DNA from: a virus
DNA length: 26,394 nt
Direction: 5' to 3' (one strand)
Virus record (IMG/VR): IMGVR_UViG_3300025769_000707
Span: 1-26,394 of that record
In this document: piece after piece, positions 627 through 16,338 of the stretch
How the letters are laid out: every line of letters begins with the position of its first letter
Position numbering within the stretch: the stretch's first letter is position 1
Made by a program: the position numbers and the translations under genes
Notes under the pieces: model-generated
What the model saw: the letters and a program-made list of their open reading frames with translations, nothing else
Databases searched by the model: none
Told to the model about the DNA's origin: nothing

Positions 627-667
627 AGTTTCCGATCCGATCAGATCCCCAGCAGATAATTGAGTGC

Positions 668-695
668 TTGTAATGTGTAGGTAAAATGCTATAAT
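668..695 (+). promoter_or_regulatory. Sigma70-type promoter for the 737-1388 unit
   Basis: The -35 is TTGTAA (668-673), the spacer is 16 bp and the -10 is a perfect TATAAT (690-695), extended by TGC just upstream. CCCAGCAG lies at 648-655. The spacer contains ATGTGT, shared with the promoter at 1670-1697. Transcription would start about 35 bp before the first ATG (737). Confidence 0.8.
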
Positions 696-736
696 TAAAG
701 CTGTTAAATAATAAGCGAAAGCAGGAGAACTTAACA

Positions 737-1156: not shown

Positions 1157-1326
1157 TGAAGGATTTAAAAATCGGAACTATCAATGGGATCATGGCGGCA
1201 TTAGCTGTCATGGTTCCGATCACATTAACAGGTCATTATGTAGCTATCATTCCAGCAGTCGCAATTTTTATATGCGGAGCTGTATTCGGGATCTGCGTTC
1301 TGATCTTTTTTAAGGGGGAAGAATGA
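1156..1326 (+). CDS. 56-residue membrane protein, two transmembrane segments
   Basis: The start ATG at 1156 overlaps the preceding TAA by one base. The product has a short basic start (MKDLK), two hydrophobic stretches at about residues 7-25 and 28-52, broken near the PITLTGHY turn, and a charged FFKGEE end. This is a typical small inner-membrane hairpin protein. Function is unknown; in early phage cassettes such proteins can affect superinfection or host membrane processes, but a holin-type role cannot be excluded or shown. Confidence 0.6.
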   Translation: MKDLKIGTINGIMAALAVMVPITLTGHYVAIIPAVAIFICGAVFGICVLIFFKGEE

Positions 1327-1388
1327 GAAACTTTACAATTTCCAGGCGGGGTAGTATCATTCGCCTTGTCTATATCCATAGACTTTAA
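1323..1388 (+). CDS. Possible 21-residue basic peptide
   Basis: An ATG at 1323 overlaps the previous TGA in an ATGA junction and follows AGGGGGAAG, a plausible ribosome site inside the upstream gene. The 21-residue product is basic (RR and several other Arg). It is supported only by its junction and by its position before the terminator at 1413. It may be chance. Confidence 0.25.
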   Translation: MRNFTISRRGSIIRLVYIHRL

Positions 1389-1412
1389 GTTCTCCAAAAC
1401 TTAGATACACTG

Positions 1413-1439
1413 AAGGGGGCCGCAAGGCCCTCTTTTTTT
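1413..1439 (+). terminator. Intrinsic terminator, GCAA tetraloop
   Basis: AAGGGGGCC and GGCCCTCTT pair over nine positions, with one G-T wobble, around a GCAA loop, followed by a T-run to 1439. Like the terminator at 512 it has a GNRA loop and is followed by the CGCA repeats of the next intergenic region. Confidence 0.9.
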
Positions 1440-1456
1440 ATGTCTGATTTTTTTTT

Positions 1457-1566
1457 TACGCAATGGATCGCAAATTCTTTAGGACGCACAAGCTCGCAAA
1501 AAGATCAGCTCCGATTTTTAGCTGGTTCGCAAAAAGTTATGATCCATTAACACCCAGCAGGACGCA
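1457..1566 (+). repeat. CGCA repeat array B (degenerate copy of array A)
   Basis: A full unit, TACGCAATGGATCGCA, is at 1457-1472. A second, GACGCACAAGCTCGCA, is at 1483-1498. A half unit GGTTCGCA ends at 1531 and GGACGCA is at 1560-1566. The gap 1389-1730 holds, in order, the terminator at 1413, a ten-T run, this array, a promoter remnant and the promoter at 1670. The order matches that of the 494-736 gap, indicating that the two gaps are related. A 63-codon frame at 1463-1654 runs across these elements and is not considered a gene. Confidence 0.65.
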
Positions 1567-1594
1567 AAAATTTTGGCAATGTGTGGGTAAGATG
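1553..1594 (+). promoter_or_regulatory. Promoter-like segment lacking a -10 (duplicate of 648-689)
   Basis: CCCAGCAG (1553-1560), TTGGCA (1573-1578) and AATGTGTGGGTAAGATG correspond in order and, within one base, in spacing to CCCAGCAG, TTGTAA and AATGTGTAGGTAAAATG at 648-688. Where the first copy has TATAAT this one reads TGGTTT, so it is probably inactive. Confidence 0.5.
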
Positions 1595-1669
1595 TGGTTT
1601 TTGAGAATAATAAGTGTTTATCTAATGTTTTTTTTATCTTCTGTTATCTTATAAAGTGTGTGTCTATAG

Positions 1670-1697
1670 TTGAAAATGTGTGCAATAAGAGTATAAT
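1670..1697 (+). promoter_or_regulatory. Sigma70-type promoter for the 1731 operon
   Basis: TTGAAA (1670-1675), a 16-bp spacer and TATAAT (1692-1697). The spacer begins ATGTGTG, resembling that of the promoter at 668. The downstream ATG at 1731 has AAGGAG at an ideal distance. It probably drives the closely packed genes through 4996. Confidence 0.8.
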
Positions 1698-1730
1698 TAG
1701 TGAGTATCATAAATAAAAAGGAGAACAAAT

Positions 1731-2111
1731 ATGACACGATTAAAATTTAATTCTAACAAGTCTTTAGTCAAGTTGGCTAAGGAAACTATCAAAGCTAGTA
1801 ATTTCAAAGTAGCTTATAGAGATAAATACACAACAGATAAATCTTTCTATCTTGTAAAAGATGATGGCATTTATTTAATGAACGCTTATCAAACACCAAA
1901 AGATAAGACACCAAAAACTAATAGCACAGTTGTCTATGCTAGTGGATTCAATCCTAAATATAACAAAGATGTTTGGGAAGATTCATATCTAGTAAGTAGA
2001 GATGACTTTGCTTTCAACTTACATTTAGAAGATGACCAACTAGAAAGAATTGCCAATGGTGGTTCTATTGAAGTTGGTTTAAGTGAAGATGAATATTCAG
2101 TGAGGGCGTAA
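1731..2111 (+). CDS. DUF3085-like protein, 126 residues
   Basis: The ATG at 1731 has AAAAGGAG upstream. The central pattern, LVKDDGIYLMNAY (residues 42-54) followed by VVYASGFNPKYNKDVW and then a DDFAFNL segment, resembles as I remember it the DUF3085 family of small bacterial and phage proteins of unknown function. The match is by eye. The N-terminal 30 residues are basic and helical and the C-terminus is acidic, with no catalytic motif. It is the first gene behind the promoter at 1670, and its stop overlaps the next ATG as TAATG. Confidence 0.65.
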   Translation: MTRLKFNSNKSLVKLAKETIKASNFKVAYRDKYTTDKSFYLVKDDGIYLMNAYQTPKDKTPKTNSTVVYASGFNPKYNKDVWEDSYLVSRDDFAFNLHLEDDQLERIANGGSIEVGLSEDEYSVRA

Positions 2112-2269
2112 TGGATAGAGGGTGTTGCAATGAGTGTGGCTATAAAGCTGATTATATTATTGATAACAATAATTATGCAGATAATGGCTACAAAGATTTA
2201 AACCAAGTGCCTAAAGATAAAATGCTTTGTGGCGTATGTTATGAGGAGAACGAAAATGAATATAACTAA
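2111..2269 (+). CDS. 52-residue zinc-ribbon-like protein
   Basis: The ATG at 2111 overlaps the previous stop by one base. The product has CCNEC at residues 5-9 and CGVC at residues 40-43, two CxxC knuckles about 30 residues apart with an acidic, Asn/Asp-rich linker. A zinc-binding treble-clef or ribbon fold is likely. No specific family is recognised. Its last 14 bases overlap the next gene, and the GAGGAG encoded at its end (2242-2247) serves as the next ribosome site. Confidence 0.6.
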   Translation: MDRGCCNECGYKADYIIDNNNYADNGYKDLNQVPKDKMLCGVCYEENENEYN

Positions 2270-2438
2270 ACAAGACTTAAAAGAATTTGTTGTGAGACGA
2301 GTCACAACAATAGTAGAGGAAACAGTTGTCATGGCTACTGATTGGGAACAAGCAGAAGATTTAGCCCTTGAAAATTGTGATGATATTAAATGGGAACATA
2401 TAGATGACCGTGAAGAAATAAACGCTGAGGAAGTGTAG
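2256..2438 (+). CDS. 60-residue acidic hypothetical protein
   Basis: A longer frame could begin at a GTG at 2229. The ATG at 2256 is preferred because GAGGAG stands eight bases before it, and the longer version has no ribosome site. The product starts with a basic amphipathic segment (residues 1-25) that predicts as strand or helix and ends strongly acidic, with a TDWEQAEDLALEN segment. The pattern 'VEETVVMATDWEQAEDLA' resembles small phage proteins with a DpnD/PcfM-like fold, but this is only a weak impression. Confidence 0.6.
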   Translation: MNITKQDLKEFVVRRVTTIVEETVVMATDWEQAEDLALENCDDIKWEHIDDREEINAEEV

Positions 2439-2440
2439 CA

Positions 2441-2749
2441 ATGGGACTAACTTTAGTAAACGAAATGCCAAAGGCAAAGAAGAAATATACAAGAGATGAA
2501 TTAGAAGTAGGGTTTAAAAGGTTTAACAAACTTGCACAGAAACTCTACAAGCTAAACAATTTAGGAAAAAAATCTGAGCCATGGCATTGGAAAGATGAAC
2601 AAGAAGCAATCATCATGAAGAAAGATTTTGACCTAATGGACGAAGCAGTTGGTTATTTTTGTGGTAGCCACTTAGAAGTCGAAGAAAAAATAACACCATA
2701 TAGACTGCATGTTTACAGTGCAGGATATTGGATAAATATAGGAGCATAG
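2441..2749 (+). CDS. 102-residue hypothetical protein
   Basis: The ATG at 2441 is two bases after the preceding stop, with GAGGAAG upstream. An internal ATG eight codons later (MPKAKKKYTRDE) is an alternative start. The N-terminal third is Lys-rich and helical. The C-terminal half has aromatic residues and an alternating strand pattern (YRLHVYSAGYWINIGA). No motif or family is recognised. It lies in a same-strand series of small genes that probably share one transcript. Confidence 0.6.
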   Translation: MGLTLVNEMPKAKKKYTRDELEVGFKRFNKLAQKLYKLNNLGKKSEPWHWKDEQEAIIMKKDFDLMDEAVGYFCGSHLEVEEKITPYRLHVYSAGYWINIGA

Positions 2750-2750
2750 A

Positions 2751-2903
2751 ATGGATATAGAACATTCAAAACTTGAAAGCATACATTGTGCATTACAAGA
2801 ACTACAACAGGAGTTTAATATTCCTAATGGCCATGAGCATTTAGAAAACGCTTTTAAATTTACAGAAGATTTAAGAGAGAAATATTTAAAGGAGCAAGAC
2901 TAA
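2751..2903 (+). CDS. 50-residue hypothetical protein
   Basis: The ATG at 2751 starts one base after the preceding TAG, with AGGAG ahead of it. The product is charged and helical throughout, with a possible short coiled coil in the second half (HLENAFKFTEDLREKYLKEQ). The AAAGGAG that encodes its last residues serves as ribosome site for the next gene, whose ATG overlaps this stop (TAATG). Function unknown; the gene call rests on the ribosome site and junctions. Confidence 0.55.
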   Translation: MDIEHSKLESIHCALQELQQEFNIPNGHEHLENAFKFTEDLREKYLKEQD

Positions 2904-3079
2904 TGAGTATTAAAGTTGAAATAGAATGGGTTGAACGAAATAAAAGATATATGACTGTAGAAGTTGACTCCATTGAGGAACTTTCTGATTTTAAACCAAT
3001 TTTAAGAGAGGGCAAAGAGCATTGGTCTAAGTTAGAAAATAACAGCATACAAATAAAACCATTACTAAGGGGTGAATAA
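2903..3079 (+). CDS. 58-residue hypothetical protein
   Basis: Both ends are TAATG junctions, at 2901 and 3077. The product alternates strand-like and charged segments (MSIKVEIEWVERNKRYMTVEV), then a short helix (SIEELSDFKPIL), and ends basic. It has no cysteine or catalytic motif. The sequence pattern suggests a small beta-rich fold. It is read between two other overlapping small genes, so its expression is probably coupled to theirs. Confidence 0.55.
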   Translation: MSIKVEIEWVERNKRYMTVEVDSIEELSDFKPILREGKEHWSKLENNSIQIKPLLRGE

Positions 3080-3390
3080 TGCAAACATATATATTAAAAA
3101 TAAGAGGTGGCTTGGAGTTCGATATTCAAGCCAAAGACTTACTTGATCTACACTCGCAAATTAATCTTACCTTTATGAATGAACTGGGTTATTACCTAGA
3201 TGATTTCATAAGCATAGAACTAAAGAAGCCAAACATGATAAGCGTATGCGAAGAATGTAGGACGCAATCATGGACTATGGAAGATGTGAATGGTCAACCA
3301 ATTACTAACCATGCAGGAAAGGACGCATACTGTTTTGAGTGTGATGACTTTGCCCATGTCATTGAGATAGAGGAGGTAGTCAATGGATAG
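3079..3390 (+). CDS. 103-residue protein with a CxxC/CxxC zinc site
   Basis: The start overlaps the preceding TAA. The N-terminal half (residues 1-50) looks like a beta-alpha-beta segment. The C-terminal half carries CEEC at 57-60 and CFEC at 85-88, a probable zinc ribbon. It is the third small CxxC protein of this arm, after those at 145 and 2111. The stop overlaps the methyltransferase-like gene by eight bases. GAGGTAG before the next ATG provides that gene's ribosome site. Function is unknown. Confidence 0.65.
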   Translation: MQTYILKIRGGLEFDIQAKDLLDLHSQINLTFMNELGYYLDDFISIELKKPNMISVCEECRTQSWTMEDVNGQPITNHAGKDAYCFECDDFAHVIEIEEVVNG

Positions 3391-4012
3391 AAGCAATATA
3401 AAAGTATTAGTTGCTTGTGAGTATAGTGGAACAGTAAGGGACGCATTCCTTGAACTAGGTTTTGACGCTTGGTCTTGCGACATACTACCATGCGAAAGCG
3501 ATATACAAGATAGACACTATGAGGGAGATGTCTTTGATATCTTGGATCAAGGTTGGGACTTAATGATAGGACACCCACCATGTACTCATCTATCTGTTAG
3601 TGGAGCAAGGTGGTTTACTGAGGGTAAGAAACCAATGTATTTAAGAGATGAGGCTATTGAGTTTGTCAAAAAACTTATGGAAGCTCCAATCAAACATATA
3701 GCCATTGAGAATCCAGTAAGTGTTATCTCATCTTACATAAGGAAATCAGATCAAACGATTAACCCTTATCAGTTTGGACACAAAGAATACAAACGCACTT
3801 GCTTATGGCTAAAAGATTTACCCAAGCTGACTGAAACAGATAATGTTAAGGAAGCTACTGACAAACTACACCCTAAAGAAAAGCATAGGATTTGGTGGAT
3901 AGGTAGTGGCAAGGGTAAAGAAAGGAGTATGTTCTACACAGGCATTGCTAAGGCCATGGCTGATCAATGGGGAACATATATAGAACAAAGTATCAACAAG
4001 GAGAATGACTAA
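3383..4012 (+). CDS. Compact cytosine-C5 DNA methyltransferase-like protein
   Basis: The 209-residue product starts with a nucleotide-fold strand and turn (KVLVACEYSG, 7-16), then GHPPCTHLSVSG (63-74) containing the Pro-Cys pair (Cys67) that is the catalytic nucleophile in cytosine-C5 methyltransferases, and IENPV (108-112) in the place of the family's ENV motif. It lacks a large target-recognition region, and typical members are over 300 residues, so it may have low specificity or act on an unusual substrate. It differs from the full Dcm-type enzyme at 5880-7301. As part of the early-type operon it could modify phage DNA soon after entry. The fold assignment is fairly secure; the actual reaction is inferred. 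Confidence 0.8.
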   Translation: MDRSNIKVLVACEYSGTVRDAFLELGFDAWSCDILPCESDIQDRHYEGDVFDILDQGWDLMIGHPPCTHLSVSGARWFTEGKKPMYLRDEAIEFVKKLMEAPIKHIAIENPVSVISSYIRKSDQTINPYQFGHKEYKRTCLWLKDLPKLTETDNVKEATDKLHPKEKHRIWWIGSGKGKERSMFYTGIAKAMADQWGTYIEQSINKEND

Positions 4013-4311
4013 TGAGTTATAAAGAATGGGACAATTTTATTATGAGCATAGATAATGAAATTGATAAAAAAGTAATGGGCGAGGGTATTTATCTTACTAC
4101 TGATAGTGGCGAGGGTTTGGGTTATTGGAACTCTTTAGTATTAAATGCGTTAGTAAATGAAATAGAAAAAGGCAATTTAGTTTTAAACGACTACAGCAAA
4201 GAAGATTTACGCAAGAGAGTTGAGGAATCTTATGCAGATTCCGATAGAGATTATTCTTTAAATGAACAAACTAAAACATTTATTAAAGAGGTATCTAATG
4301 ACAGAACATGA
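4012..4311 (+). CDS. 99-residue acidic hypothetical protein
   Basis: The ATG at 4012 overlaps the preceding stop (TAATG), with AAGGAG encoded in the end of the methyltransferase-like gene. The product is acidic and mostly helical by pattern. A Gly-rich segment, GEGIYLTTDSGEGLGYWN (residues 23-40), might form a loop but is not a P-loop. No family is recognised. Its last 14 bases overlap the next gene, whose ribosome site AAAGAGG it contains. Confidence 0.6.
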   Translation: MSYKEWDNFIMSIDNEIDKKVMGEGIYLTTDSGEGLGYWNSLVLNALVNEIEKGNLVLNDYSKEDLRKRVEESYADSDRDYSLNEQTKTFIKEVSNDRT

Positions 4312-4591
4312 TCTAAAAGTAGAACGACAACGCACACTTATCAAGCTGGAGAAGTGGCGTAAAGAAGTCAAGATGATCCTTGACGAAAAGAAAGATCCTA
4401 AAAAACCTTGGCAGTTTACCATTACATACAATGATGATAGCCAAGTAATTGAATGGTCTAACTCTAACCATAAGCAGCATATTCCTAGCCCACATAGTGA
4501 GGAGGATCTTATTGACATGATGAAAGGAGATGAACACGAAAGGCAAAGAAAATTATTTAACCAAAAAAGGAGAGAGAACAATGGGATTTAA
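4298..4591 (+). CDS. 97-residue charged hypothetical protein
   Basis: The frame is open from an ATG at 4262, but the ATG at 4298 is preferred because AAAGAGG stands just before it; the longer start is deep inside the previous gene. Residues 1-33 are a basic, helical segment and the last 30 are highly charged (MMKGDEHERQRKLFNQKRRE). A middle segment (PWQFTITYNDDSQVIEWS) is strand-like. No family is recognised. It overlaps the next gene by 11 bases. Confidence 0.55.
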   Translation: MTEHDLKVERQRTLIKLEKWRKEVKMILDEKKDPKKPWQFTITYNDDSQVIEWSNSNHKQHIPSPHSEEDLIDMMKGDEHERQRKLFNQKRRENNGI

Positions 4592-4808
4592 AATAGAAAA
4601 AGATGTGCCACTAAAGAAAGCAAACTTTAGAACACCATTTACACAAGCACTCGATAAACTTTTAATCGGAGATACGATTACAGGTTTAAGTAGAGATGAG
4701 GTCTACAAATACAGATCAAACTTCTACACAGCACACTTCAAGGATCGCAAGTTCCAATTCTGGAAGGACGCAACATCTAAAAGATATTGTGTGCAAAGGG
4801 TAAGTTAA
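4581..4808 (+). CDS. KIEKDVP-family small protein, copy 1 (75 residues)
   Basis: The ATG at 4581 has AAAAGGAGAGAG upstream and is preferred over an in-frame ATG at 4530. It shares with the gene at 12706 the start (M)xxKIEKDVP, a central GD(T/S)-type turn (LLIGDTITGL here, MEVGDSVVCN there), and a closing strand with aromatic and basic residues. Short proteins with this layout are, to my knowledge, frequent in phages of marine bacteria and of unknown function. The stop overlaps the xseB ATG (TAATG), so the two are probably co-translated. Confidence 0.7.
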   Translation: MGFKIEKDVPLKKANFRTPFTQALDKLLIGDTITGLSRDEVYKYRSNFYTAHFKDRKFQFWKDATSKRYCVQRVS

Positions 4809-4996
4809 TGACATTTGAAAAAGGCATGGCTAAGTTGAAAGACTTAGTCAGCTCCTTAGAAAAAGAAAACATATCCCTCGAAGAATCAATCCAATCTTTT
4901 GAAGAAGGAACTAAGGTCGTAAAGTATTGCGAACGCAAGTTAAAGGACGCAGAAGATAGAGTCAAAGCTATTCTTGATCAGTCTGATCTTCAATAA
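4808..4996 (+). CDS. xseB: Exonuclease VII small subunit (XseB)
   Basis: A longer frame begins at a GTG at 4787, but the ATG at 4808 gives the family's exact N-terminus: MTFEKGMAKLKDLVSSLEK, then ISLEESIQSFEEG and a helix with CERKLKDAEDRV. This is the classic two-helix XseB pattern, and at 62 residues it is close to the usual 60-80. In bacteria XseB binds the catalytic subunit XseA, several copies per complex, to form exonuclease VII, which degrades single-stranded DNA. No xseA is present in the window, so the phage subunit would have to act with host XseA or alone. It is the last plus-strand gene of this arm and its final 29 bases overlap the convergent terS. Confidence 0.88.
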   Translation: MTFEKGMAKLKDLVSSLEKENISLEESIQSFEEGTKVVKYCERKLKDAEDRVKAILDQSDLQ

Positions 4997-5459
4997 GATC
5001 TTTATCATCTTCTACAGTTTCCGAAGTACCCAAGATAATCTGATTCTCTAACACCAATTCTTTCAATCTATTCTCTAGCTGATCCCTACTCATGTTATCT
5101 ATCTTATGAATCTTCAACTCTTTCCTATCTACCATAAGCCCAGCAAGTTTAGCTCTTGCAATCTCTGCTGTAACCGCAGGCCCATAACTTCCATCGGCTA
5201 ATGCAACATCTCTTATCTCACCCAACTTAGTTGCTATGCCTTCAAAAGTAATTTCATTCTTAGCTCTTTGCACAGCTTTGAGTTCCATGATCTTCTCTTG
5301 CACATGAGCATACTGCTGATCACTCAACAACCTCGTTGCTGCAACCCCTGGATTTTCATAGCCCGCAAGATGAGCACACTTCGTCTGCTTATAATCTTGA
5401 TACACCATAAGGTCGACAAATGTTTCCTGTTTTTTTGTTAATTTTTTTTTCTCTTCCAT
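4968..5459 (-). CDS. terS: Terminase small subunit
   Basis: The N-terminal segment LTKKQETFVDLMVYQDYKQ with AGYENPGVAATRLLS (residues 8-47) is the helix-turn-helix DNA-binding region typical of the Terminase_2-type small subunit. The SYGPAVTAEIARAKLAGLMVDRK region is the second hallmark of many such phage proteins. At 163 residues it has normal length. The subunit recognises phage DNA and recruits the large subunit for packaging. No terminase large subunit follows; genes on the opposite strand start at its 3' end. It begins two bases after the upstream frame's stop and has no good ribosome site, so it may be translated by coupling. The GCAC-repeat region just upstream could hold its recognition site. 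Confidence 0.85.
   Translation of the reverse strand: MEEKKKLTKKQETFVDLMVYQDYKQTKCAHLAGYENPGVAATRLLSDQQYAHVQEKIMELKAVQRAKNEITFEGIATKLGEIRDVALADGSYGPAVTAEIARAKLAGLMVDRKELKIHKIDNMSRDQLENRLKELVLENQIILGTSETVEDDKDLIEDQTDQE
4976..5000. other. Inverted repeats at the convergent xseB/terS ends
   Basis: GATCAG-T-CTGATC (4976-4988) and GATCTT-CAAT-AAGATC (4985-5000) overlap one another within the shared 3' ends of the two genes. Stems are only six bp and T-runs are poor, so they would be weak bidirectional terminators or pause sites at best. Confidence 0.35.
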
Positions 5460-5461
5460 GT

Positions 5462-5887
5462 CTATATTCTAACAAGATTTCTACTAGAGAATACTATCTC
5501 TCCTAAGTAAAGGTGTATGTTAATACACACCTTTCTATAGTTCTCTATAGAGATGCACGTACGCACAACCGCACGTACCAGTAAAACTAGGGCTTTCAGA
5601 GGTGCATGTGCGTATGTGCAGGCATGTGCAACTGCACAACCGCACAGACACCTAAATCGCATAGGAATGCACCTTTCAGAGGGGGGTGTGCAATTCGCCA
5701 TTTCTTCATTGCACGTACGTTTTTGTATAATTTTTGTACAACCAGGATCATTTTTCTTTTGGGACATTTGTTTCTTTTTCTCTCCTTTATCTCTATTCTT
5801 ACCAAAGATTCTATCAAAGTTCTCATTAAATTTATCACGATCTTTTATGCGATCACGACTACCTTTTCCACCATGCCATTCAGTCAT
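5462..5887 (-). CDS. Small basic phage protein (WHGGKGS type) with doubtful C-terminal extension
   Basis: The ATG at 5887 has GGAGAGAG before it and overlaps the methyltransferase stop by eight bases, so the start is convincing. The first 45 or so residues (TEWHGGKGSRDRIKDR, then KFNENFDRIFGK) match a short family I know from many phage genomes: W-x-GGKGS, charged middle, then a FDRIFG-like end. That family is usually about 45-55 residues. Here no stop occurs and the frame continues for about 90 more residues through the GCAC repeat cluster, ending two bases before terS. The extension is Cys-rich and unlike a normal domain; it may be translated only incidentally, or it may couple terS translation. 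Function unknown. Confidence 0.6.
   Translation of the reverse strand: MTEWHGGKGSRDRIKDRDKFNENFDRIFGKNRDKGEKKKQMSQKKNDPGCTKIIQKRTCNEEMANCTPPSERCIPMRFRCLCGCAVAHACTYAHAPLKALVLLVRAVVRTCISIENYRKVCINIHLYLGEIVFSSRNLVRI
5509..5534 (-). other. Stem-loop upstream of terS
   Basis: On the minus strand AAAGGTGTGT and ACATACACCTTT pair over 10 positions, with one G-T wobble, around a six-base loop. It stands about 50 bp before the terS start, next to two CTATAG palindromes (5535-5540, 5545-5550). No T-run follows. A regulatory or processing role for the terS mRNA is possible. Confidence 0.45.
5554..5720. repeat. GCAC/GTGC repeat cluster upstream of terS
   Basis: GCACGTAC occurs at 5555, 5571 and 5711; GCACAACCGCAC at 5563 and 5634; CTTTCAGAGG at 5593 and 5673, 80 bp apart. 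Roughly a dozen GCAC or GTGC tetramers lie in 167 bp, and local GC content is visibly above that of its surroundings. An open frame crosses it on the minus strand, but the encoded Cys/His-rich stretch does not look like a protein fold. A packaging, replication or transcription control site is more likely. Confidence 0.65.
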
Positions 5888-7301
5888 TGTCTCTCTCCAT
5901 GTTTTTAAATATATGTTTGATTACTTCAATCGTCCAACCATTGCCTAGCATTTTAAATCTTTGAGAATTACTGACATGATCTGTGTAGTTGTCGGGTACT
6001 GTCTGCAACCTCTCGCATTCTAGGGGTGTTAGCTTACGCCAGTAGGCCTCATCAACTACCACCTTGGGTTCTCTGTTGCCACCTTGACAGGTATTAACAG
6101 TAGGTGACTTACCATCTTCGCTATAGACTCTCTTAAGTATGTCATGTCCGTTGATGTCTGTTGCTATGCCTACTTGTATGGGCTTGTCACTTGTCTCTAT
6201 GTATTGTTCTTTATTTCCAGCAGTAAGTGTCGGAGACTTACCATTCTCACTATATACTCTTTGCTTTGTTTCATAGACACCATCTCTGTATTCAAACTCC
6301 ATAATCTGTGCATCAAAGGTGTCTGTTTTTATACCAAGAATATCTTTTAATTGAAGCCAATGTTCTTCAGAAGGTATAGAAAAGAAATCACTACCTAACT
6401 TTCTAAAGTAATGTTCAACAGTAGAATACTTATCCTCTAGTTCTTCTGCTATTTGTTGTTTGTTCTTACCACACTTATCATAATGATCTAAGATACATTG
6501 CTGTAAACCAGGTATATCAACCTCATGCTTCCTTACTTTTACTTCTTCTACATTCATACCTACTTTGATTGGCTTGTGTGATTTATCTTTGCTGTCATAT
6601 ATAAGTGTCGTTGAATTGGGGACAGTATCTTCAACAGGAATCATACTCTTCTCAGATTTCTCCATACTTCTTTGAGGTCTAGCACAAGGATAGGTTGTTG
6701 TTAGGCAGTAGGCTTTATTATCTTGGTTAGTCATGTCCGATAATCTATCTTGATTAACTCTCGTCTCCAATATGTCCCTCAAAACTATGCCTTTTTGCTC
6801 AGGTTGGGTGACATTGGGTATGTTCGTCCAGTAATATCTCTTCCTTGACTGGGCAGAAACAAGACTGCTACATATCATAGTCGGCTCGATACCAAAGGGT
6901 ATCTCTGGATAACATGCTGACACCTGTTCGCTGATTACTTGTAAGTATTCTTTCTTCATTCTTACATTCTCTAGTAAGAAATACTTTGGCTTACATTCTT
7001 TTAATAATCTAATGAACTCGAAGAACAATGCTGACCTTGGATCATCAAAGGCGAGTTGCTTACCCGCGAAACTAAATCCTTGGCATGGACTACCAGCAAG
7101 AATAAGATCTATCTTTGGTAGATCCTCTGACTTAACATCACAAACATCTCCAAGCTGTATGATCTCAGGATAGTTTGCTTGGCTTACTTGCATTGCATAC
7201 TTATCTATTTCACAGGCATAGTAGTTATCTACCTTGATTCCTAATTGATCCAAAGCAATACGACCACATGACATACCGTCAAACAAACTTAATACATTCA
7301 T
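5880..7301 (-). CDS. Dcm-type cytosine-C5 DNA methyltransferase with inserted HTH-like segment
   Basis: The 473-residue enzyme carries the ordered C5-methyltransferase motifs: SLFDGMSCG (5-13, AdoMet binding), GSPCQGFS (70-77, catalytic Cys73), ENV (111-113), QSRKR (151-155), TPLECERLQ (425-433) and MLGNG (451-455). Between motifs VIII and IX is a long variable region. About 257-330 resembles a helix-turn-helix (KNKQQIAEELEDKYSTVEHY), with two near-identical segments, RVYSENGKSPTL (348-359) and RVYSEDGKSPTV (391-402). It would methylate cytosine in phage DNA, probably against host restriction. It overlaps its neighbours by four and eight bases in the minus-strand operon. The family is certain; the target sequence is not known. 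Confidence 0.93.
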   Translation of the reverse strand: MNVLSLFDGMSCGRIALDQLGIKVDNYYACEIDKYAMQVSQANYPEIIQLGDVCDVKSEDLPKIDLILAGSPCQGFSFAGKQLAFDDPRSALFFEFIRLLKECKPKYFLLENVRMKKEYLQVISEQVSACYPEIPFGIEPTMICSSLVSAQSRKRYYWTNIPNVTQPEQKGIVLRDILETRVNQDRLSDMTNQDNKAYCLTTTYPCARPQRSMEKSEKSMIPVEDTVPNSTTLIYDSKDKSHKPIKVGMNVEEVKVRKHEVDIPGLQQCILDHYDKCGKNKQQIAEELEDKYSTVEHYFRKLGSDFFSIPSEEHWLQLKDILGIKTDTFDAQIMEFEYRDGVYETKQRVYSENGKSPTLTAGNKEQYIETSDKPIQVGIATDINGHDILKRVYSEDGKSPTVNTCQGGNREPKVVVDEAYWRKLTPLECERLQTVPDNYTDHVSNSQRFKMLGNGWTIEVIKHIFKNMERDND

Positions 7302-7516
7302 CTTTGTCTTCTCTTATAATAAACTCTTACCATATACTTCCTGACTATAGCTATACATGTAAAGACTGCTACTTGAATTAATGATGTAGCTACAAGACTT
7401 ACCTCTAAGTATTTACACAGACTAAGCAAACCAAAGCTAATCGGAAAGGACATGATCAATCCTATGCTGACATCATTCATAGCTTCATTTAATGATTCCT
7501 TATCTATCTTAATCAT
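7298..7516 (-). CDS. 72-residue membrane protein
   Basis: The start overlaps the PAPS-reductase-like gene by eight bases and the stop overlaps the methyltransferase in an ATGA junction. The product has an acidic N-terminal helix (IDKESLNEAMND), two hydrophobic segments at about residues 17-34 and 40-57, and a very basic tail (RKYMVRVYYKRRQR). The layout suggests both ends in the cytoplasm. Similar small phage membrane proteins beginning with 'DKESxNEAMND' are known to me as an uncharacterised family. No lysis gene surrounds it, so a holin role is unlikely. Confidence 0.75.
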   Translation of the reverse strand: MIKIDKESLNEAMNDVSIGLIMSFPISFGLLSLCKYLEVSLVATSLIQVAVFTCIAIVRKYMVRVYYKRRQR

Positions 7517-8345
7517 GGCAGAAACATGTCATCTGATCGTCATCATTAAATAATTCTTGTTGACTCTTACTTATATCAACGAGCTTTATATATCCTGGTC
7601 TGTCTTTTCTAAAGGTAGCTCCTTGATGTTCACCAAACTTTTGTTCTTGTTTGATCCACCAATCTGCCATCTCTGGTCTTTCTCTTAATATAGATAGTGT
7701 TGTATCCATGCCTTTTAAGAAACACAAATCACAATTACCAGCAGGAGTTTTACCATTTGCATTCGTTAGGTTTAGATCAAAGTTTTGTTTCTTCCAAAAC
7801 TCTGATACATCTTTGACTGTATGCTTGGCATCATTCATAGGAGTTATGTTTGTCCATACCTCGTACTGTTTCATTGCACTTGCTACTCTTCTAGGTTCGT
7901 CATGTCTAAGACCAATTACATTAAACCATTCTTTGTATCCTTTAATCTTTCTCATAAACCTGTACATAACTTTTATCTTTAACTCTGATGTGCAGAATCT
8001 AGTTACTGGGTTGGGTAAATATTTTCTATGATCAAGCAATGCTTCAAAGGGCTCACCATTTCTTGATGCTGTTTCGTATGTGACCTCTTTAGTTCTATAG
8101 ATAGGTCGCTCATCACCAAAGTAAAGCTCTAACCAATGTATGTTTATGTCCCACTTCTTTGCTATGTCGTTTACAAAGTCTAATGTTTCGGGTGCTTCCT
8201 TGCCTGTATTAGCAAAGACTACATGAATATCATCGGGCAACTTACCGCCATGTGCTTGTATTATATTGTGCAACATAAAGCCTGATGTTCTTCCACCACT
8301 AAAGCTAATGAGTGCAGGGCCTTCTATTTTATATGGGTTAATCAT
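7509..8345 (-). CDS. PAPS reductase-like / ATP-pyrophosphatase family protein
   Basis: The 278-residue protein has the PP-loop SFSGGRTS (residues 14-21), then FANTGKEAPETLDFV (44-58), TRFCTSELK (115-123) and GLRHDEPRR (145-153), the pattern of the PAPS-reductase/adenine nucleotide alpha-hydrolase family. Cys205 and Cys208 (GNCDLC) and Cys274 and Cys276 near the end could bind a metal or iron-sulfur cluster. Family members adenylate a substrate or transfer sulfur. In phages such genes are usually annotated PAPS reductase without proof. Its place beside a methyltransferase and a replication gene makes nucleic-acid modification more plausible than sulfate assimilation. Substrate unknown. Confidence 0.85.
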   Translation of the reverse strand: MINPYKIEGPALISFSGGRTSGFMLHNIIQAHGGKLPDDIHVVFANTGKEAPETLDFVNDIAKKWDINIHWLELYFGDERPIYRTKEVTYETASRNGEPFEALLDHRKYLPNPVTRFCTSELKIKVMYRFMRKIKGYKEWFNVIGLRHDEPRRVASAMKQYEVWTNITPMNDAKHTVKDVSEFWKKQNFDLNLTNANGKTPAGNCDLCFLKGMDTTLSILRERPEMADWWIKQEQKFGEHQGATFRKDRPGYIKLVDISKSQQELFNDDDQMTCFCHD

Positions 8346-10338
8346 CTTTCCAAGGTCGTTTCATTTCATTGTCTGCTAAATAATACCAAGTATTCTTACC
8401 AGGTACGTTATGATTCTTTACTCTTTCGCCTAGATACTTCTGCACATAACTCACTGCATAACGAGCGGCCCTCTCTCCTGATGCCATCTCATTTTCTTTA
8501 AGAGTTTCTCTTGCTAATAGTTCTAGTTCTTGTCTTGTATAAAACTTTTGTTTGCTCATACCTGATGCTACTACTCTTGCAATCTCTACCTCATCGGGAC
8601 TGTCTTGTGCATCTACTACTTTAAAGTATCCTTTTTCAAAATCAAAGTATGCTAGATGCTGATCAGGTTCTCTTGCATTACGAGCTTCATAGAATAATGT
8701 TATGTTTGGTTTCTTACCCGACAGCTTGACACCTGAATCCATCCACCCAGCGAAAGCACTACCACCCCTAGCTGACATGAACGACAAATCATCTGCCCTT
8801 TCTTTACCAGTATGGTGAGCAATGATCACTGCTACTTTATATAGTTCAATAAGTTTATCTACTCTTGATAACATCTCATGTATCTCTGAGTTGGAGTTCT
8901 CTTCTCCACTAAAGAAATTAATAATAGGATCTATCATTACCAAGTCTGGTTTATGAAACTCTATACTCTCTGCGATAGCATCTATGTCGCTGTCCCTCAT
9001 GATGTTCTTTCTTAATCTACCAGATGCTATAAGGTTTGACTTACCTAAGTTGTATAGTTCGGGATCATGATGATAGGGTTGATAATACATCTCGATTCTT
9101 TTCTTTAAGAACTCATGAATGATCTCTGCTTGTAGCCACATTACTTTGATAGGTCTTGAGAAACTCATACCCATAAAGTCTGTGCCTGTAGTAGCTGCTG
9201 CCGCGAATGCTCCTAGCCAATGCGACTTACCTATCTTTGGTTTACCTAACAGTAAGACTCTGGATTGTTCAAAGACAAAAGCATCTCCCCAATACTGCTC
9301 AATCCTACTGCTGTCCATTGAATCCCAAAAGGGATCGTTAAATGATTTGAGTCCAAGAGGATCGCTTTGTATATCATCCTTAGCTTTTATTATAGGATCT
9401 TCTTGATCCATGATTTCTTTTAAATCATCTGTTAATTGTATCTGCCACTGACTTGTATTCCATTTCTGTATGCCTGTCTCGTCTTCAGGATTTCTTTTCA
9501 AGTGTCCAGTACAAATGCTTTGAGTTGTATTTAATACTTCTTGCACACTCATAGGTGGGTTGTTTGTTTGATTCCAATCCAATGCTTTGATTACAACTTC
9601 TCTCATGCCCCAACCCTCTAGTATCCATTTACCTACTAGCCTAGCAAGGGTGTCGTTTCGCATTCCTGTTTGCACACCATCTGTTGTTAGTGGTGTTTTA
9701 CTTTCTGTGTTGATCTTACCTGTGTTGTTATAGTCATAAATAATATTCATGTCTTGACTATTAAGAGTAGGTAAATCATCAAGTGAATCTACGACAGCTC
9801 CTTCAACTACCTCGAACTGATAATTAACAGAAGGACTGACCATGACATAGCCACCCTCTCCTCTTATATCTAATTTACCTGTAGTGTTTCTTATCTTTAG
9901 ATCATCATTGATTGCATAGAAGTAATGATAGCCACCACGAGGTGTCTTTTGTTTTAACATTGTTCTTGTTATCTGACCTGACTCACAGAAATCACATGCC
10001 TCTTGGGTGTCTGCATCTAGCACTACAAATGTTACGCCTGTAATTGCTGCCCAGTTGCAATCTTTAAATTGTAGATACCATTGCTTGACTTCATTAAGAG
10101 TAGGTTGCTTCTCTATATAGTCAGCCCATTTTACTCTTGGTGTTTTTGACCAACGCTTTTGTAAAACCATATCGTCTTCAAAGGGATGTCTGCTTTTAAA
10201 GTATTCAGGTATGATGTCGTTTGTAGATCCGCATGGTATTAGATGAAAATTATTTTCATGATATGACATGAGCATATCTTTACGCTCATCATTGGCTATG
10301 TCTTGTCCGACTGTGTTTGGTTTTATTTCTATTGGCAT
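8338..10338 (-). CDS. Primase-polymerase / replicative helicase fusion
   Basis: The frame can be read from a TTG at 10368, but the ATG at 10338 (MPIEIKPNTV) is preferred; it overlaps the HTH gene by 10 bases. The N-terminal part has the primase-polymerase pattern: FVVLDADT (around 104-111), TPRGGYHYFY with a His (around 132-141), and IRGEGGYVMVSPS (around 158-170). The C-terminal part is a RecA-fold helicase: GKPKIGKS Walker A (around 365-372), LVMIDP Walker B (around 466-471) and AHHTGKE (around 507-513). At 666 residues it would prime and unwind phage DNA at the fork. I see no phage DNA polymerase in this window. Confidence 0.88.
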   Translation of the reverse strand: MPIEIKPNTVGQDIANDERKDMLMSYHENNFHLIPCGSTNDIIPEYFKSRHPFEDDMVLQKRWSKTPRVKWADYIEKQPTLNEVKQWYLQFKDCNWAAITGVTFVVLDADTQEACDFCESGQITRTMLKQKTPRGGYHYFYAINDDLKIRNTTGKLDIRGEGGYVMVSPSVNYQFEVVEGAVVDSLDDLPTLNSQDMNIIYDYNNTGKINTESKTPLTTDGVQTGMRNDTLARLVGKWILEGWGMREVVIKALDWNQTNNPPMSVQEVLNTTQSICTGHLKRNPEDETGIQKWNTSQWQIQLTDDLKEIMDQEDPIIKAKDDIQSDPLGLKSFNDPFWDSMDSSRIEQYWGDAFVFEQSRVLLLGKPKIGKSHWLGAFAAAATTGTDFMGMSFSRPIKVMWLQAEIIHEFLKKRIEMYYQPYHHDPELYNLGKSNLIASGRLRKNIMRDSDIDAIAESIEFHKPDLVMIDPIINFFSGEENSNSEIHEMLSRVDKLIELYKVAVIIAHHTGKERADDLSFMSARGGSAFAGWMDSGVKLSGKKPNITLFYEARNAREPDQHLAYFDFEKGYFKVVDAQDSPDEVEIARVVASGMSKQKFYTRQELELLARETLKENEMASGERAARYAVSYVQKYLGERVKNHNVPGKNTWYYLADNEMKRPWKDD

Positions 10339-10526
10339 TCGTCTACTGATCCATAAATGTTTTCCCAACCTAAAGCATAGCCTGTCATTTTAATAAGTTT
10401 CTTAGCTTGATTGACTGAGGGTTGCCTGGTTCCGTATCGCCAAGATCTAACAGTATCAATAGATACACCTAAGTCTTTGGCTAACTTATCTTCACCTCTT
10501 TTAACAATGTAGTCTTTAAGTTCCAT
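10329..10526 (-). CDS. Cro-like helix-turn-helix regulator
   Basis: The 65-residue product is essentially one HTH domain: KLAKDLGVSIDTVRSWRYG with TRQPS (residues 14-37), like Cro/YdaS-type repressors. AAGGAG precedes the ATG at 10526. It heads the leftward operon and borders a 208-bp divergent control region that contains two inverted copies of a 14-bp site, its likely operators. It would repress its own operon and perhaps the opposing one. No CI-like partner or integrase is present in the window, so a regulator of lytic timing is more likely than a lysogeny switch. Confidence 0.85.
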   Translation of the reverse strand: MELKDYIVKRGEDKLAKDLGVSIDTVRSWRYGTRQPSVNQAKKLIKMTGYALGWENIYGSVDECQ

Positions 10527-11181: not shown

Positions 11182-11351
11182 TTTCACACAATGATGTAGT
11201 ACAAGAGATACGTGATCGTATCAAAAGAGATGTTGCACCAGGTTTACACAAAGCTTGGGTTAATAAAATATTAATGATTGTTGACGATGTAGAAACCATA
11301 GCAGACGAAATGATGTCACAAGGAGTGCAAAACTATGAGCCTGTTGAATAG
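11178..11351 (+). CDS. 57-residue hypothetical protein
   Basis: The ATG at 11178 overlaps the previous stop in an ATGA junction, with AAAGGAG ahead. The product is mostly helical (VVQEIRDRIKRDVAPGLHK) with an acidic second half. Its last 17 bases overlap the Sak4-like gene and encode that gene's ribosome site (AAGGAG). No family is recognised. Confidence 0.55.
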   Translation: MISHNDVVQEIRDRIKRDVAPGLHKAWVNKILMIVDDVETIADEMMSQGVQNYEPVE

Positions 11352-12093
11352 CGTAACCACAGGGATACAAATCCCTTCAATTAAAATAAACCTATCTGGT
11401 ACAGATGGCATTGGTAAAACTACCTTTGCAAGTCAAGCACCAAACCCTATCTTTATAAAGACAGAAGCTGGTACTAACTATATAGATACAGCATCCTTTC
11501 CTTTATGTGAAAGCTATGACGACATACTAATACAAATCAAAACTTTGTATGAAGAAGATCATGACTACAAGACAGTGGTCTTTGATACAACTGACTGGGC
11601 TGAGAAATTAGTACAGCAAAAGGTATGTCAGATTCATGGACAAAAATCTATTGAGTCTATGGGATATGGAAAAGGTTTTACAGAATCTGCTGAGTTATTC
11701 GGCAGACTACTAAGAATGTTTGATGCCCTACAAAAGAAGAAGATGCACATCATCTTACTATCTCATGTAGGCATAAGAACTTTTAATGATCCAGAGCGTG
11801 AGCCCTATGATCGTTGGGAGATGGCTACTCATAAGAAAGTATCAGCAATGATACGTGAGTGGGTAGACTTCAACCTGTTTGCAAACTACGAGGTATCAAC
11901 TCGTACTAGTGGACAGGGTTTCAAGGAAACAACCAGGGCTGTGTCATACGGCAAGCGTAAGTTGTTTCATAAATACACCGCAGCATTTGATGCCAAGAGT
12001 CGAGTTGATTTAGGGAATGCTCCCTTGGATCTTGATTGGACAGCGTTCATGTCTGCATTTAAAGAATCTTTAAAATCTAAAAAAGGAGAATAA
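11335..12093 (+). CDS. Sak4-like RecA-fold ATPase (single-strand annealing)
   Basis: The 252-residue product has a Walker A motif, GTDGIGKT (22-29), a Walker B-like TVVFDTTDW (80-88), and a later strand, MHIILLSHVGI, corresponding to a sensor strand of the RecA fold. This is the AAA_24/Sak4 family of phage recombinases, which anneal or exchange single-stranded DNA with help from a phage SSB. The next gene is a DUF669 protein, its usual partner, which supports the call. The start overlaps the previous gene, with AAGGAG upstream. It would serve recombination-dependent repair and replication in the cytoplasm. Confidence 0.85.
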   Translation: MSLLNSVTTGIQIPSIKINLSGTDGIGKTTFASQAPNPIFIKTEAGTNYIDTASFPLCESYDDILIQIKTLYEEDHDYKTVVFDTTDWAEKLVQQKVCQIHGQKSIESMGYGKGFTESAELFGRLLRMFDALQKKKMHIILLSHVGIRTFNDPEREPYDRWEMATHKKVSAMIREWVDFNLFANYEVSTRTSGQGFKETTRAVSYGKRKLFHKYTAAFDAKSRVDLGNAPLDLDWTAFMSAFKESLKSKKGE

Positions 12094-12094
12094 T

Positions 12095-12595
12095 ATGTCT
12101 GATGATTTTAATTTAAACTTGACTGATGTCGAGGATACAGGTGGATCGTTTGATCTTATGCCAGTCGGTGACTACGAATTTGTAGCTACTGGATGGGAGA
12201 ATAAAACTAGTGCTAAGGGTGATAGATACTTATCAATTACCTTTGATGTGACAGGCCCTACTCATTCAGGTCGTAAGATATGGGAAACATTCATGCTCGA
12301 AGGAGCTGGGTTAAACGTATCTATCAGCAGAATAAGAGACTGGAGAAGATCCATGGGCATGGAAGCTGATGTTGATGCCTTTGGTCTTGAACAGTTAGAG
12401 AGCATGTTAAACATTCCTTTCAAAGCCAAGGTCAGTGTTGAAGTTGGTAGAGATAAGGGAGACGGAACGAAGTGGGACGACAAGAACAAGATTGCTAAGT
12501 TTCTTGCAGTTGAGACAAGCAGTAAGTCAGCTCCTTCGCAAAGTCCTAAAGAAGAATCAAAGTCAGATGATGATGATTTCGATTGGGACAAATAA
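12095..12595 (+). CDS. DUF669 protein, SSB-like
   Basis: The 166-residue protein has the DUF669 pattern: an acidic start, LMPVGDYEFVATGWENKTSA (21-40) with a following beta strand, and a C-terminal acidic tail ending DDDDFDWDK like the protein-interaction tip of single-stranded DNA-binding proteins. Proteins of this family are usually found next to Sak4-like recombinases, as here, and are thought to bind single-stranded DNA. AAAAGGAG before the ATG supports the start. The acidic tail probably recruits replication or recombination partners. Confidence 0.85.
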   Translation: MSDDFNLNLTDVEDTGGSFDLMPVGDYEFVATGWENKTSAKGDRYLSITFDVTGPTHSGRKIWETFMLEGAGLNVSISRIRDWRRSMGMEADVDAFGLEQLESMLNIPFKAKVSVEVGRDKGDGTKWDDKNKIAKFLAVETSSKSAPSQSPKEESKSDDDDFDWDK

Positions 12596-13094: not shown

Positions 13095-13341
13095 AACTTG
13101 CAACACAGTTATTGATGACGTGCAGCAATGTGTTGATGGTTGGTCAATGAAAGAATTAGACTCACGATCAGCAATCATTACACTAACAAGATTTGCTGTT
13201 GATCTTACCTTTAAGTTTTCTTTCACACAAAAAGAAGCCTTAGAGTTAATACTAAGTATGGTACAAGATCACATGGACATAATGGGAGTTGAAAAACCAA
13301 TCACAGAAGATCCCGTAGAAGAAATAAAAATACTACATTGA
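13054..13341 (+). CDS. 95-residue hypothetical protein
   Basis: The ATG at 13054 has no strong ribosome site, although it lies within the coding end of the previous gene, which may supply coupling. The product is mostly helical with two moderately hydrophobic stretches (IITLTRFAVDLTFKFSF and EALELILSMVQDHMDIM) that look like packed helices rather than membrane spans. Its stop overlaps the helicase's TTG start in a TTGA junction. Function unknown. Confidence 0.55.
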   Translation: MTDKEKFIEYLDSKTCNTVIDDVQQCVDGWSMKELDSRSAIITLTRFAVDLTFKFSFTQKEALELILSMVQDHMDIMGVEKPITEDPVEEIKILH

Positions 13342-15008
13342 AACTTAGATACTACCAAAGGGATGCAATAGATTCCCTACACCATTGGTTTGCCAATCGT
13401 CCAGCAGAGGATCATGCTTTGATCGTACTGCCAACGGCTGCTGGTAAAACCATTATCTTTTCTCATTTTATTAAAGAGATACTAGCCAAAGATCCTACAG
13501 CTAGGTTCTTGGTTATGGCTCATAGAAAAGAATTAGTAGAACAAGCAGAGACTAAACTTAAAACTGTATGGCCCGATGCTCCAGTGGGTGTATTGGCAGC
13601 AGGGATGAAACGCTTTGAGATAGATTCACAGATCCTTATAGCAAGTAGAGATACCCTAGCATCACCCAAGAGATTAGATGCTGTCGGTAGCTTTGATTAC
13701 ATGATCATAGATGAAGCACATAACGTACCGCCAAGCTCTCATACTAGATACAAGAAGATTATAACAACCCTATCAGACAGGAATCCTATGAAGGTTATGG
13801 GCTGTACTGCCACACCATATCGTATGGGACAAGGTTATATATATGGCAATCGTAAAGATCATTTCTTTAAAGGACTAGCTTATTCAGTATCAATACCTGA
13901 GCTGATCCGTAATGGATTTTTGTGTAGGTTATCAGCCTATGCTGTAAATGAGGATGCCATCATTGATGCAGGAGCTGTTGCATTAAAGTTTAAGAATGGA
14001 GACTTTAAGGAAAGCGAACTAGAAAAAATAGCTATGGTCGATGATACGATCTTACAGGTTATTAACGACTGGATTGATAACGCTTATACCAAAGGTAGAA
14101 CAGCTACAGTATTCTTTTGTGTATCAGTATTACATGCAGAGAAAATGACTCAATGCTTGAAGACCTATGGGATCGAAGCTGAATGCGTTACAGGTGAGAC
14201 ACCAAAAGATAAAAGAGAAGATGTATTAAAAAGATTCAACGCTGGATCTATACATGCTATATGTAATGTGGGTGTGCTGACTGAAGGTTGGGATGCTCCA
14301 AGAGCTGACTGCGTAGCATTACTTAGACCAACACAAAGCGTTGGCTTGTTTGTTCAAATGTGCGGAAGGGGGATGAGACTGCACGAGGAGAAAGACAACT
14401 GCCTACTACTAGACTATGGAGAAAATGTAGCTAGGCATGGTTGTCTTGATGAGATACAACCTGATCAGTCAGCTCCAGCTAGATACCATCCTAAGATATG
14501 TTCTAACTGTAGTGCAATTAACTTACCCTCAGCTAAGAAATGTATTGAGTGTGGTCAAGAGTTTGAAGGATCTAAAAAGTTTGAAGAACTACAGACTAAG
14601 AAAGAAAAAGAAGTTGCTAAGAGAACTAAGGCAGAGAGACAAGCTGTCTTGTCTGATGAGAGAGAGAAGGCCAAGCCTAGATACAAACCTGTCACTGACA
14701 TCTATGCAACAGTAACCAAATCACAGAATGGCAGTGAGTATTGTCAAGTAATCTTTACAGTTAAGAATGAATTTTTCCCTAAGAAAATGCCGTTGATGTT
14801 TGGACATCCCAAAGCACACCACATGGCAGTACGTAAGTGGAAGAAGATAGCAGAGAAGTGGGGATCGCCCAAGCAACCATGGATGGCCGCTGAATTAATA
14901 AACAGTGGTGCCTTTGAGAACATAGCAGAGATTGTCTTACAAAAGCAGGGCAAGTATGAGAATGTTATAGGGATCAGAACAAAACAAAACGAGGAGATAT
15001 TATTATGA
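13338..15008 (+). CDS. Superfamily 2 DEAD/DEAH helicase with zinc ribbon
   Basis: The 556-residue protein shows Walker A PTAAGKT (32-38), DEAH (125-128), TATP (157-160) and QMCGRGMR motif VI (340-347), an SF2 helicase of the Rad25/UvsW-like type common in phages. Cys388, 391, 402 and 405 form a zinc ribbon. The first in-frame ATG lies past the Walker A, so translation must begin at the TTG at 13338, which gives the expected KLRYYQRDAI start. It probably remodels branched DNA during replication and recombination. It overlaps both neighbours in four-base junctions. Confidence 0.9.
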   Translation: MKLRYYQRDAIDSLHHWFANRPAEDHALIVLPTAAGKTIIFSHFIKEILAKDPTARFLVMAHRKELVEQAETKLKTVWPDAPVGVLAAGMKRFEIDSQILIASRDTLASPKRLDAVGSFDYMIIDEAHNVPPSSHTRYKKIITTLSDRNPMKVMGCTATPYRMGQGYIYGNRKDHFFKGLAYSVSIPELIRNGFLCRLSAYAVNEDAIIDAGAVALKFKNGDFKESELEKIAMVDDTILQVINDWIDNAYTKGRTATVFFCVSVLHAEKMTQCLKTYGIEAECVTGETPKDKREDVLKRFNAGSIHAICNVGVLTEGWDAPRADCVALLRPTQSVGLFVQMCGRGMRLHEEKDNCLLLDYGENVARHGCLDEIQPDQSAPARYHPKICSNCSAINLPSAKKCIECGQEFEGSKKFEELQTKKEKEVAKRTKAERQAVLSDEREKAKPRYKPVTDIYATVTKSQNGSEYCQVIFTVKNEFFPKKMPLMFGHPKAHHMAVRKWKKIAEKWGSPKQPWMAAELINSGAFENIAEIVLQKQGKYENVIGIRTKQNEEILL

Positions 15009-15256
15009 ACAAAACTAAATTAGTAGAACTAGCAGATGAAGTATTGACTGATGTTGATGTTGATATGCAAAGTGTTTTAAAAAAAGAATTAGAGATAAAT
15101 TTATGTGAGAAGTTAGCTGATATTTTTTTTGCAGCACAACGACACCATAAATACCCTTTAGATGTTGGTCGCATTGGAAAAAATGAAAAATCCTACAAAG
15201 CTGTAAAACCAATATTGGATGATTGTATAGATAAATTATTAGGAAAAACAAAATGA
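15005..15256 (+). CDS. 83-residue hypothetical protein
   Basis: Both junctions are ATGA overlaps, upstream with the helicase and downstream with the nuclease gene. GAGGAG stands before its ATG. The product is helical and charged (NLCEKLADIFFAAQRHHKY in its middle) without catalytic motif. Its position between helicase and nuclease suggests a small accessory role, but there is no sequence evidence for it. Confidence 0.65.
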   Translation: MNKTKLVELADEVLTDVDVDMQSVLKKELEINLCEKLADIFFAAQRHHKYPLDVGRIGKNEKSYKAVKPILDDCIDKLLGKTK

Positions 15257-16338
15257 CAATCAATCATCTTCTTGATGAAGTAGAAACAAATACTGAGAGA
15301 CACCAAAGGTTTTATTTGGGTATCAGTGGTATCGGCAATCCAAATCAAAGGCTCCTTTGGATGCGATACCGCTGGCTCATGCCCGATGAATGGGAGCCAA
15401 GAGTTCTTAGACTTTTAGACCTAGGCAATGTAGTAGAAGATCATTTGATTGAGAAGCTACGTAAGATACCAGGAGCCATTATCTATGATGTTCAAAAGGA
15501 TGGTAAGCAATTTAAAACAGAGGCTCTTGGAGGGCATGTCAAAGGACACATAGATGGTGTCGCTAGAAACCTACCAGGCTTGAAAGAAAACATACCCTAT
15601 CTGTTAGAGTTTAAAACAGCTAACGACAATCGTTTTAAAAATTTAGAAAAGCTAGGTAGTTATTGTGCTTGGTCAGAAGAGTATGACGCACAGATTCATT
15701 TGTACATGGGACTTTTTAAAATGGATCATTGCATAGCTATCGTTTACAACAAAAACAATTCAGCTTTGTATACAGAAGTTATTGACTTTGATTACTTAAA
15801 GTTTGAAATGCTTATGGAAAAAGCAGAGCATGTATTGAAAACTAATACGCCACCTGACAACAACATACCCGAGACTGACTACAGAATACGTAGCTTTATG
15901 TCTGCTAAAGAAAGGGCCGCATATCTTGGCAGATCTTTACCTGAGAAAGTTCATTGCAGATCATGTCGCTTTGCTAGTGTTGATATTAACAAGGGTGGGG
16001 GGCATTGGCATTGCTCTCAACATGACAAAGGAATCAGCGAGGATAGACAGACTAAGGGATGTCCAAGACATAACTATATACCAGAGCTAATACCAGCAAC
16101 CATGATCGAAGAGGATGATAACTTTGTTATGTATGAGAAAGATGGGTTTAAGTTTATTAACGTAGCTAGTCAGAAAGAATCTACTGGCGACAACCTTTAC
16201 TCTAGTGAGGAGCTGATAGAAGTAATCAACAGTGGCTTTCCAAAAGAATTACTAGAACAGTGTGCTTCTGCTAAGAGATTAATGAATGGTACGATCAAGA
16301 GTATCAGACCTTGGGTTGAAACAGGCGTGCCTTTCTAA
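15253..16338 (+). CDS. PD-(D/E)XK nuclease, Cas4/RecB-like
   Basis: The 361-residue protein contains GNVVED (59-64), GHIDG (98-102, Asp101), LLEFK (117-121, Glu119 and Lys121) and DAQIHLYM (145-152), in order the alpha-helical Glu, Asp, ExK and Gln motifs of Cas4/RecB-type nucleases. Four cysteines (235, 238, 254, 270) after the catalytic core could hold an iron-sulfur cluster or zinc, as in Cas4. It probably resects DNA ends to feed the Sak4-like annealing protein. It is the last gene of the rightward operon. Its stop codon overlaps that of the convergent resolvase. Confidence 0.85.
   Translation: MTINHLLDEVETNTERHQRFYLGISGIGNPNQRLLWMRYRWLMPDEWEPRVLRLLDLGNVVEDHLIEKLRKIPGAIIYDVQKDGKQFKTEALGGHVKGHIDGVARNLPGLKENIPYLLEFKTANDNRFKNLEKLGSYCAWSEEYDAQIHLYMGLFKMDHCIAIVYNKNNSALYTEVIDFDYLKFEMLMEKAEHVLKTNTPPDNNIPETDYRIRSFMSAKERAAYLGRSLPEKVHCRSCRFASVDINKGGGHWHCSQHDKGISEDRQTKGCPRHNYIPELIPATMIEEDDNFVMYEKDGFKFINVASQKESTGDNLYSSEELIEVINSGFPKELLEQCASAKRLMNGTIKSIRPWVETGVPF

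Follow-up and report, generated by a model that had tools for sequence, protein, structure and literature searches.

A lone exonuclease VII small-subunit gene beside the small terminase gene in a group of uncultured phages

Escherichia coli exonuclease VII (ExoVII) contains six XseB hairpins per XseA coiled coil and keeps its active sites shut inside the complex. The contact between the two subunits is needed, as mutations that affect it abolish ExoVII function (PMC5684230), and XseA made in the absence of XseB kills E. coli cells, according to a passage of PMC9765227 that cites Jung 2015. Loss of ExoVII improves phage Red recombination, with the 3′ ends of single-stranded DNA (ssDNA) being protected (PMC3434165). 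Among phages, a complete ExoVII is annotated in the Gordonia phages Bantam and SpeedDemon, and XseA was matched by 33 Gordonia phage records, with xseB beside xseA in those inspected. Here we analysed a 26,394-nt stretch of viral DNA (IMG/VR record IMGVR_UViG_3300025769_000707, positions 1–26,394; hereafter the window) from a phage group that is uncultured and mostly marine. The window carries xseB and yielded no match to the XseA profile PF02601, in agreement with the first-pass annotation, which saw no xseA in it.

Identity and fold of the window XseB

The xseB open reading frame (ORF) lies at exactly 4808–4996 on the plus strand, with an ATG start, 62 codons and a TAA stop, and is the final gene of a rightward operon that meets the terminase small-subunit gene head-on:

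4262..4591, plus strand: the operon's second conserved ORF upstream of xseB, no assigned function, 60–64% identity in distant relatives
4530..4808, plus strand: small ORF directly upstream of xseB, no assigned function, likely true start ATG at 4581
4795..4807, plus strand: ribosome-binding site AAAGGG, 7 nt before the xseB ATG, with the TAATG overlap (read from sequence)
4808..4996, plus strand: xseB, exonuclease VII small subunit, 62-aa helical hairpin (Pfam, TIGRFAM, fold, selection, conservation)
4968..5459, minus strand: terminase small subunit (phrog_51, 7.8e-7; weak PF03592 match below cut-off)

The stop codon of the upstream ORF overlaps the start of xseB in the sequence TAATG, close relatives are arranged alike, and this overlap likely couples translation of the two genes. 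The upstream ORF (4530..4808) is a conserved neighbour, with 57–64% identity in distant relatives, and had neither a Pfam nor a PHROG match. When read from its likely start, this ORF (4581–4808) has an N-terminal segment, KIEKDVP (direct repeat D2), in common with a small ORF of the recombination cluster at 12694–12903, and the two are probably paralogues.

The product of 4808–4996 is a genuine XseB. Profile searches bore out the earlier family assignment, PF02609 matching at 62.9 bits (cut-off 24, E 2.8e-17) over profile positions 1–51 of 52 and the TIGR01280 xseB equivalog at 69.8 bits (cut-off 35) over its full length (1–57 of 57), and phmmer matched E. coli XseB (5e-8) and Bordetella XseB (7e-7) in the PDB. 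No named family in PHROGs matched the product, the sole match being to an unknown family (E 0.0024). The AlphaFold model (pLDDT 93) placed helices at residues 3–17 and 24–60 in a predicted antiparallel hairpin, in agreement with the two-helix pattern recognized at first pass, and its ten best PDB matches were all XseB chains, from E. coli ExoVII (8txr) and Bordetella XseB (1vp7). Superposed on the XseB chains of 8txr, whose structures were determined as part of the E. coli ExoVII complex, the model reached best TM scores of 0.84–0.88 with an rmsd of about 1.0. The description of the product as nearly normal in length held for the hairpin, which is whole, but not for the chain, since the 62 residues are the hairpin alone, compared with 80 aa in E. 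coli, and the C-terminal tail of many bacterial XseBs is missing.

At 28 positions conserved across 48 bacterial XseBs and scored by residue class, the window XseB kept the class at 24, against 25 for E. coli XseB; the conserved residues tested include F3, E4, L10, L17, E18, L24, E25, G34, C41, L45 and A48. Together with the superposition on the 8txr chains, these retained diagnostic residues suggest that the phage XseB has plausibly kept the XseA-binding form.

Conservation, origin and absence of xseA

Using the small terminase as an IMG/VR query independent of xseB, we retrieved 80 contigs, 77 of which carry xseB directly beside the small terminase gene; the remaining three stop within 100 nt of it. 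Among loci found through the primase, xseB was present in all 26 that include the small terminase. The two genes are convergent in the window, where their 3′ ends overlap by 29 nt, and at every locus with both genes (131 loci, redundancy between searches included), with overlaps of 26–134 nt. The dN/dS of xseB was about 0.2 (0.11–0.30 among pairs with dS above 0.3), indicating purifying selection on the protein. Thus, xseB is a core gene of the phage group. A consensus-like bacterial XseB used as the query gave no matches in viral contigs.

Variation around this constant arrangement was also recorded. Some phage XseBs bear a C-terminal tail of ~30 aa, closed by an acidic stretch resembling DDSLDFSDLE, that the window version lacks (L102:2265-2546, L090:5470-5814 and L064:3082-3366 (minus strand)), and this tail is encoded antisense to the small terminase, with an overlap of at most 134 nt. 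The cytosine-5 methyltransferase at 5880–7301 differs in length among relatives (473, 497, 569 and 649 aa) while xseB stays in place, and a PAPS-reductase-family/NinC-like protein encoded at 7509–8345 in the window is absent from the same place in some relatives. A 73.9-kb contig (L109-L112) has a second methylase-like ORF adjoining the cytosine-5 methyltransferase and two similar copies of a tail/structural gene block, which point to large-scale duplication or to chimerism in the assembly.

The right end of a 48,007-bp contig (L012) corresponds to window positions 1–5886 and its left end to 15395–26394, at about 96–99% identity, so that the window bridges the two ends of this contig and, assuming the same species, the two close into a genome of about 57.5 kb (48,007 + 9,508). 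XseA was absent from the 48,007-bp contig and from relatives' contigs of 56.6 and 73.9 kb in searches with PF02601, TIGR00237 and a full-length XseA profile built here, the latter run with heuristic filters off. This last profile gave a best phage E-value of 0.91 on the window and the three long contigs, and 1e-134 for its positive control, a Gordonia phage that is also a row of the profile. The complete-genome search proposed at first pass thus returned no xseA in the ~57.5-kb closed genome or in related contigs of up to 74 kb, and an xseA gene elsewhere in the genome was ruled out by the Pfam, TIGRFAM and local profiles on these four sequences. Any XseA partner must therefore be the host's.

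A tree of 68 XseBs, built from a short alignment (75 columns) that limits the deeper relations, united those sampled from the phage group in a single clade with 96/99 support; the alphaproteobacterial and Bacillota XseBs in the sample fell outside it. The most distant phage subfamilies are about 35–40% identical, and identity to the bacterial XseBs found is at most about 49%. This sequence comparison indicates that xseB entered the phage group in a single, ancient acquisition. It is a core, selected and anciently acquired gene across the group rather than a one-off, which goes beyond the first-pass annotation. Reading the host from the nearest bacterial XseB was tried and rejected, as alphaproteobacterial and Bacillota sequences both reach no more than ~49% and the phage clade falls inside neither. 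The G+C content is low (37%), and the nearest cultured or complete relatives are the HTVC023P-type pelagiphages and DSL-LC04 (capsid 64–70%, large terminase 58–60%), which together make an alphaproteobacterial host probable. In alphaproteobacteria, xseA was within about 1.5 kb of xseB at none of 30 loci and was found elsewhere in most of the genomes tested, and such separation would make capture of xseB alone easy.

Candidate roles of a lone XseB

The window also encodes replication and recombination proteins:

8338..10368, minus strand: prim-pol/AAA replication protein (PF09250, PF08708, PF13481), used as a query for relatives
11335..12093, plus strand: Sak4-like single-strand annealing ATPase (phrog_124, 1.1e-39; PF13479)
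12095..12595, plus strand: ssDNA-binding-protein-like DUF669 protein (phrog_378, 3.5e-7; PF05037)
13338..15008, plus strand: DEAD/ResIII helicase (PF04851, PF00271)
15253..16338, plus strand: Cas4-domain exonuclease, the phage's own recombination nuclease (phrog_1990, 3.7e-54)

Given a Sak4-like annealing protein, an SSB-like protein and a Cas4-type exonuclease, the phage is expected to make ssDNA intermediates. The earlier suggestion that a lone phage XseB could redirect or dampen host ExoVII would fit the published facts on this enzyme. We tentatively favour, at somewhat less than an even chance, the reading that the phage XseB acts on host ExoVII and dampens or tames its attack on phage ssDNA, where binding, expression timing and direction of the effect are what we infer. 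The gene would be expressed from the rightward operon adjoining the replication region, extra phage hairpin subunits would coat the helices of host XseA, and XseA would be held in a capped, controlled complex, or in a hybrid, less active one, thereby sparing the ssDNA ends that arise from Sak4/SSB/Cas4-type recombination and from replication. Stated more narrowly, as a takeover by one subunit, with phage XseB taking the place of host XseB on host XseA, or saturating it there, and thereby protecting ssDNA recombination intermediates, the proposal may be correct, although we would sooner bet against it. Against dampening, XseB is required for ExoVII function, so an added supply of it could equally well increase activity, and HTVC023P-type pelagiphages do without xseB, which is therefore not generally needed. 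The missing C-terminal tail, present in many bacterial XseBs, also counts against this reading.

The main rival to dampening is the opposite effect, with phage XseB, as a limiting activator, making host ExoVII more active or more stable for breakdown of host DNA into nucleotides or for trimming of recombination or packaging ends. The dependence of ExoVII activity on XseB (PMC5684230) speaks for such a role, as do the canonical, well-conserved sequence, which is how an activator would be expected to look, and the XseA of the 33 Gordonia phage records, by which phages can evidently profit from ExoVII activity. However, a phage wanting that activity could also carry xseA, as the Gordonia phages do, and ExoVII opposes annealing-type recombination (PMC3434165), apparently the type used by the studied phage; we consider activation rather unlikely, if a serious contender. 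The lethality of XseA without XseB noted above suggests a further role as an antidote, in which phage XseB mainly averts damage by free XseA, and so delays premature cell death, when host protein synthesis stops and host XseB runs short. The separation of alphaproteobacterial xseA and xseB would allow their balance to drift, but we found no sign of a shorter lifetime for XseB than for XseA, or of a shutdown of host synthesis by the studied phage, leaving this role improbable.

The invariable place of phage XseB beside the small terminase, and the separate clade with only about 35–40% identity between the most distant subfamilies, might indicate that the hairpin now serves a phage protein, such as the Cas4-type exonuclease or the terminase, instead of ExoVII. 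Yet the family-diagnostic residues are kept without drift, and a 3′-to-3′ overlap on opposite strands does not suggest co-expression with the terminase, making recruitment of this kind still less probable. By altering ExoVII, the phage protein could also block an ExoVII-dependent host defence, for example one that needs the enzyme for maturation of some retron DNAs. ExoVII trims some retron msDNAs. Work on ExoVII toxicity is also among the references of a retron paper (PMC8989520), but no link to retrons or defence was found in the analysis of the phage group, and we rate counter-defence as very unlikely. Least credible, to the point of being negligible, is an artefact, whether host DNA was carried into the contig, the gene is a dead remnant or the product is a coiled coil that matches by accident. 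Spurious hits to coiled-coil profiles do occur with short helical proteins, and several other 'phage' records with XseB resemble bacterial contamination, whereas here the profile scores are far above cut-offs, the same phage neighbours recur in dozens of independent contigs and dN/dS is about 0.2; scores, synteny and selection rule out host contamination and a chance coiled coil.

Phages often inhibit host nucleases such as RecBCD. The searched literature yielded no phage factor acting on exonuclease VII, and the one-subunit takeover, if true, would within that literature make this XseB the first phage protein known to control the enzyme. As a lone, selected, core protein, it offers a natural means of testing how XseB dosage affects ExoVII, and it may serve as an ExoVII modulator in recombineering, which ExoVII is known to hamper (PMC3434165).

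Comparison with known XseB-bearing and related phages

The XseB family is already known, and it is the lone, conserved, phage-borne arrangement that appears to be undescribed in the literature and collections searched, the literature searched yielding no account of phage XseB and the main paper on HTVC023P-type pelagiphages making no mention of it. A search of an annotated phage collection with the window XseB gave 16 matching records. The 10 loci fetched from these come from Bantam, SpeedDemon and contigs of faecal or wastewater origin that lack annotation and are probably bacterial, and all have xseA directly upstream of xseB. As far as the searched collections reach, lone xseB is particular to the studied group.

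The HTVC023P-type pelagiphages (HTVC023P, HTVC027P, 023Pt_psg01) and DSL-LC04 resemble this group in large terminase, capsid and genome size, but differ in having no XseB over cut-off and no XseA. PF02609 found nothing over cut-off in these four or in Roseobacter phage CRP-901, and the ORFs neighbouring the small terminase in isolates HTVC027P and HTVC023P, considered as candidate xseB genes, proved unrelated. The small terminase of the studied group is only about 32% identical to that of the HTVC023P type, compared with 58–70% for large terminase and capsid. Bacterial XseBs (PF02609, TIGR01280; 8txr, 1vp7) share with the phage protein the full-length profile match, the diagnostic residues and the two-helix hairpin, whereas the phage copy has no accompanying xseA, ends at 62 aa without a tail and belongs to its own clade. 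The Gordonia phages (Bantam, SpeedDemon, BrutonGaster, Yvonnetastic and others) likewise encode an XseB of similar length and fold, but those inspected carry xseA with xseB directly beside it, whereas the studied group carries xseB only.
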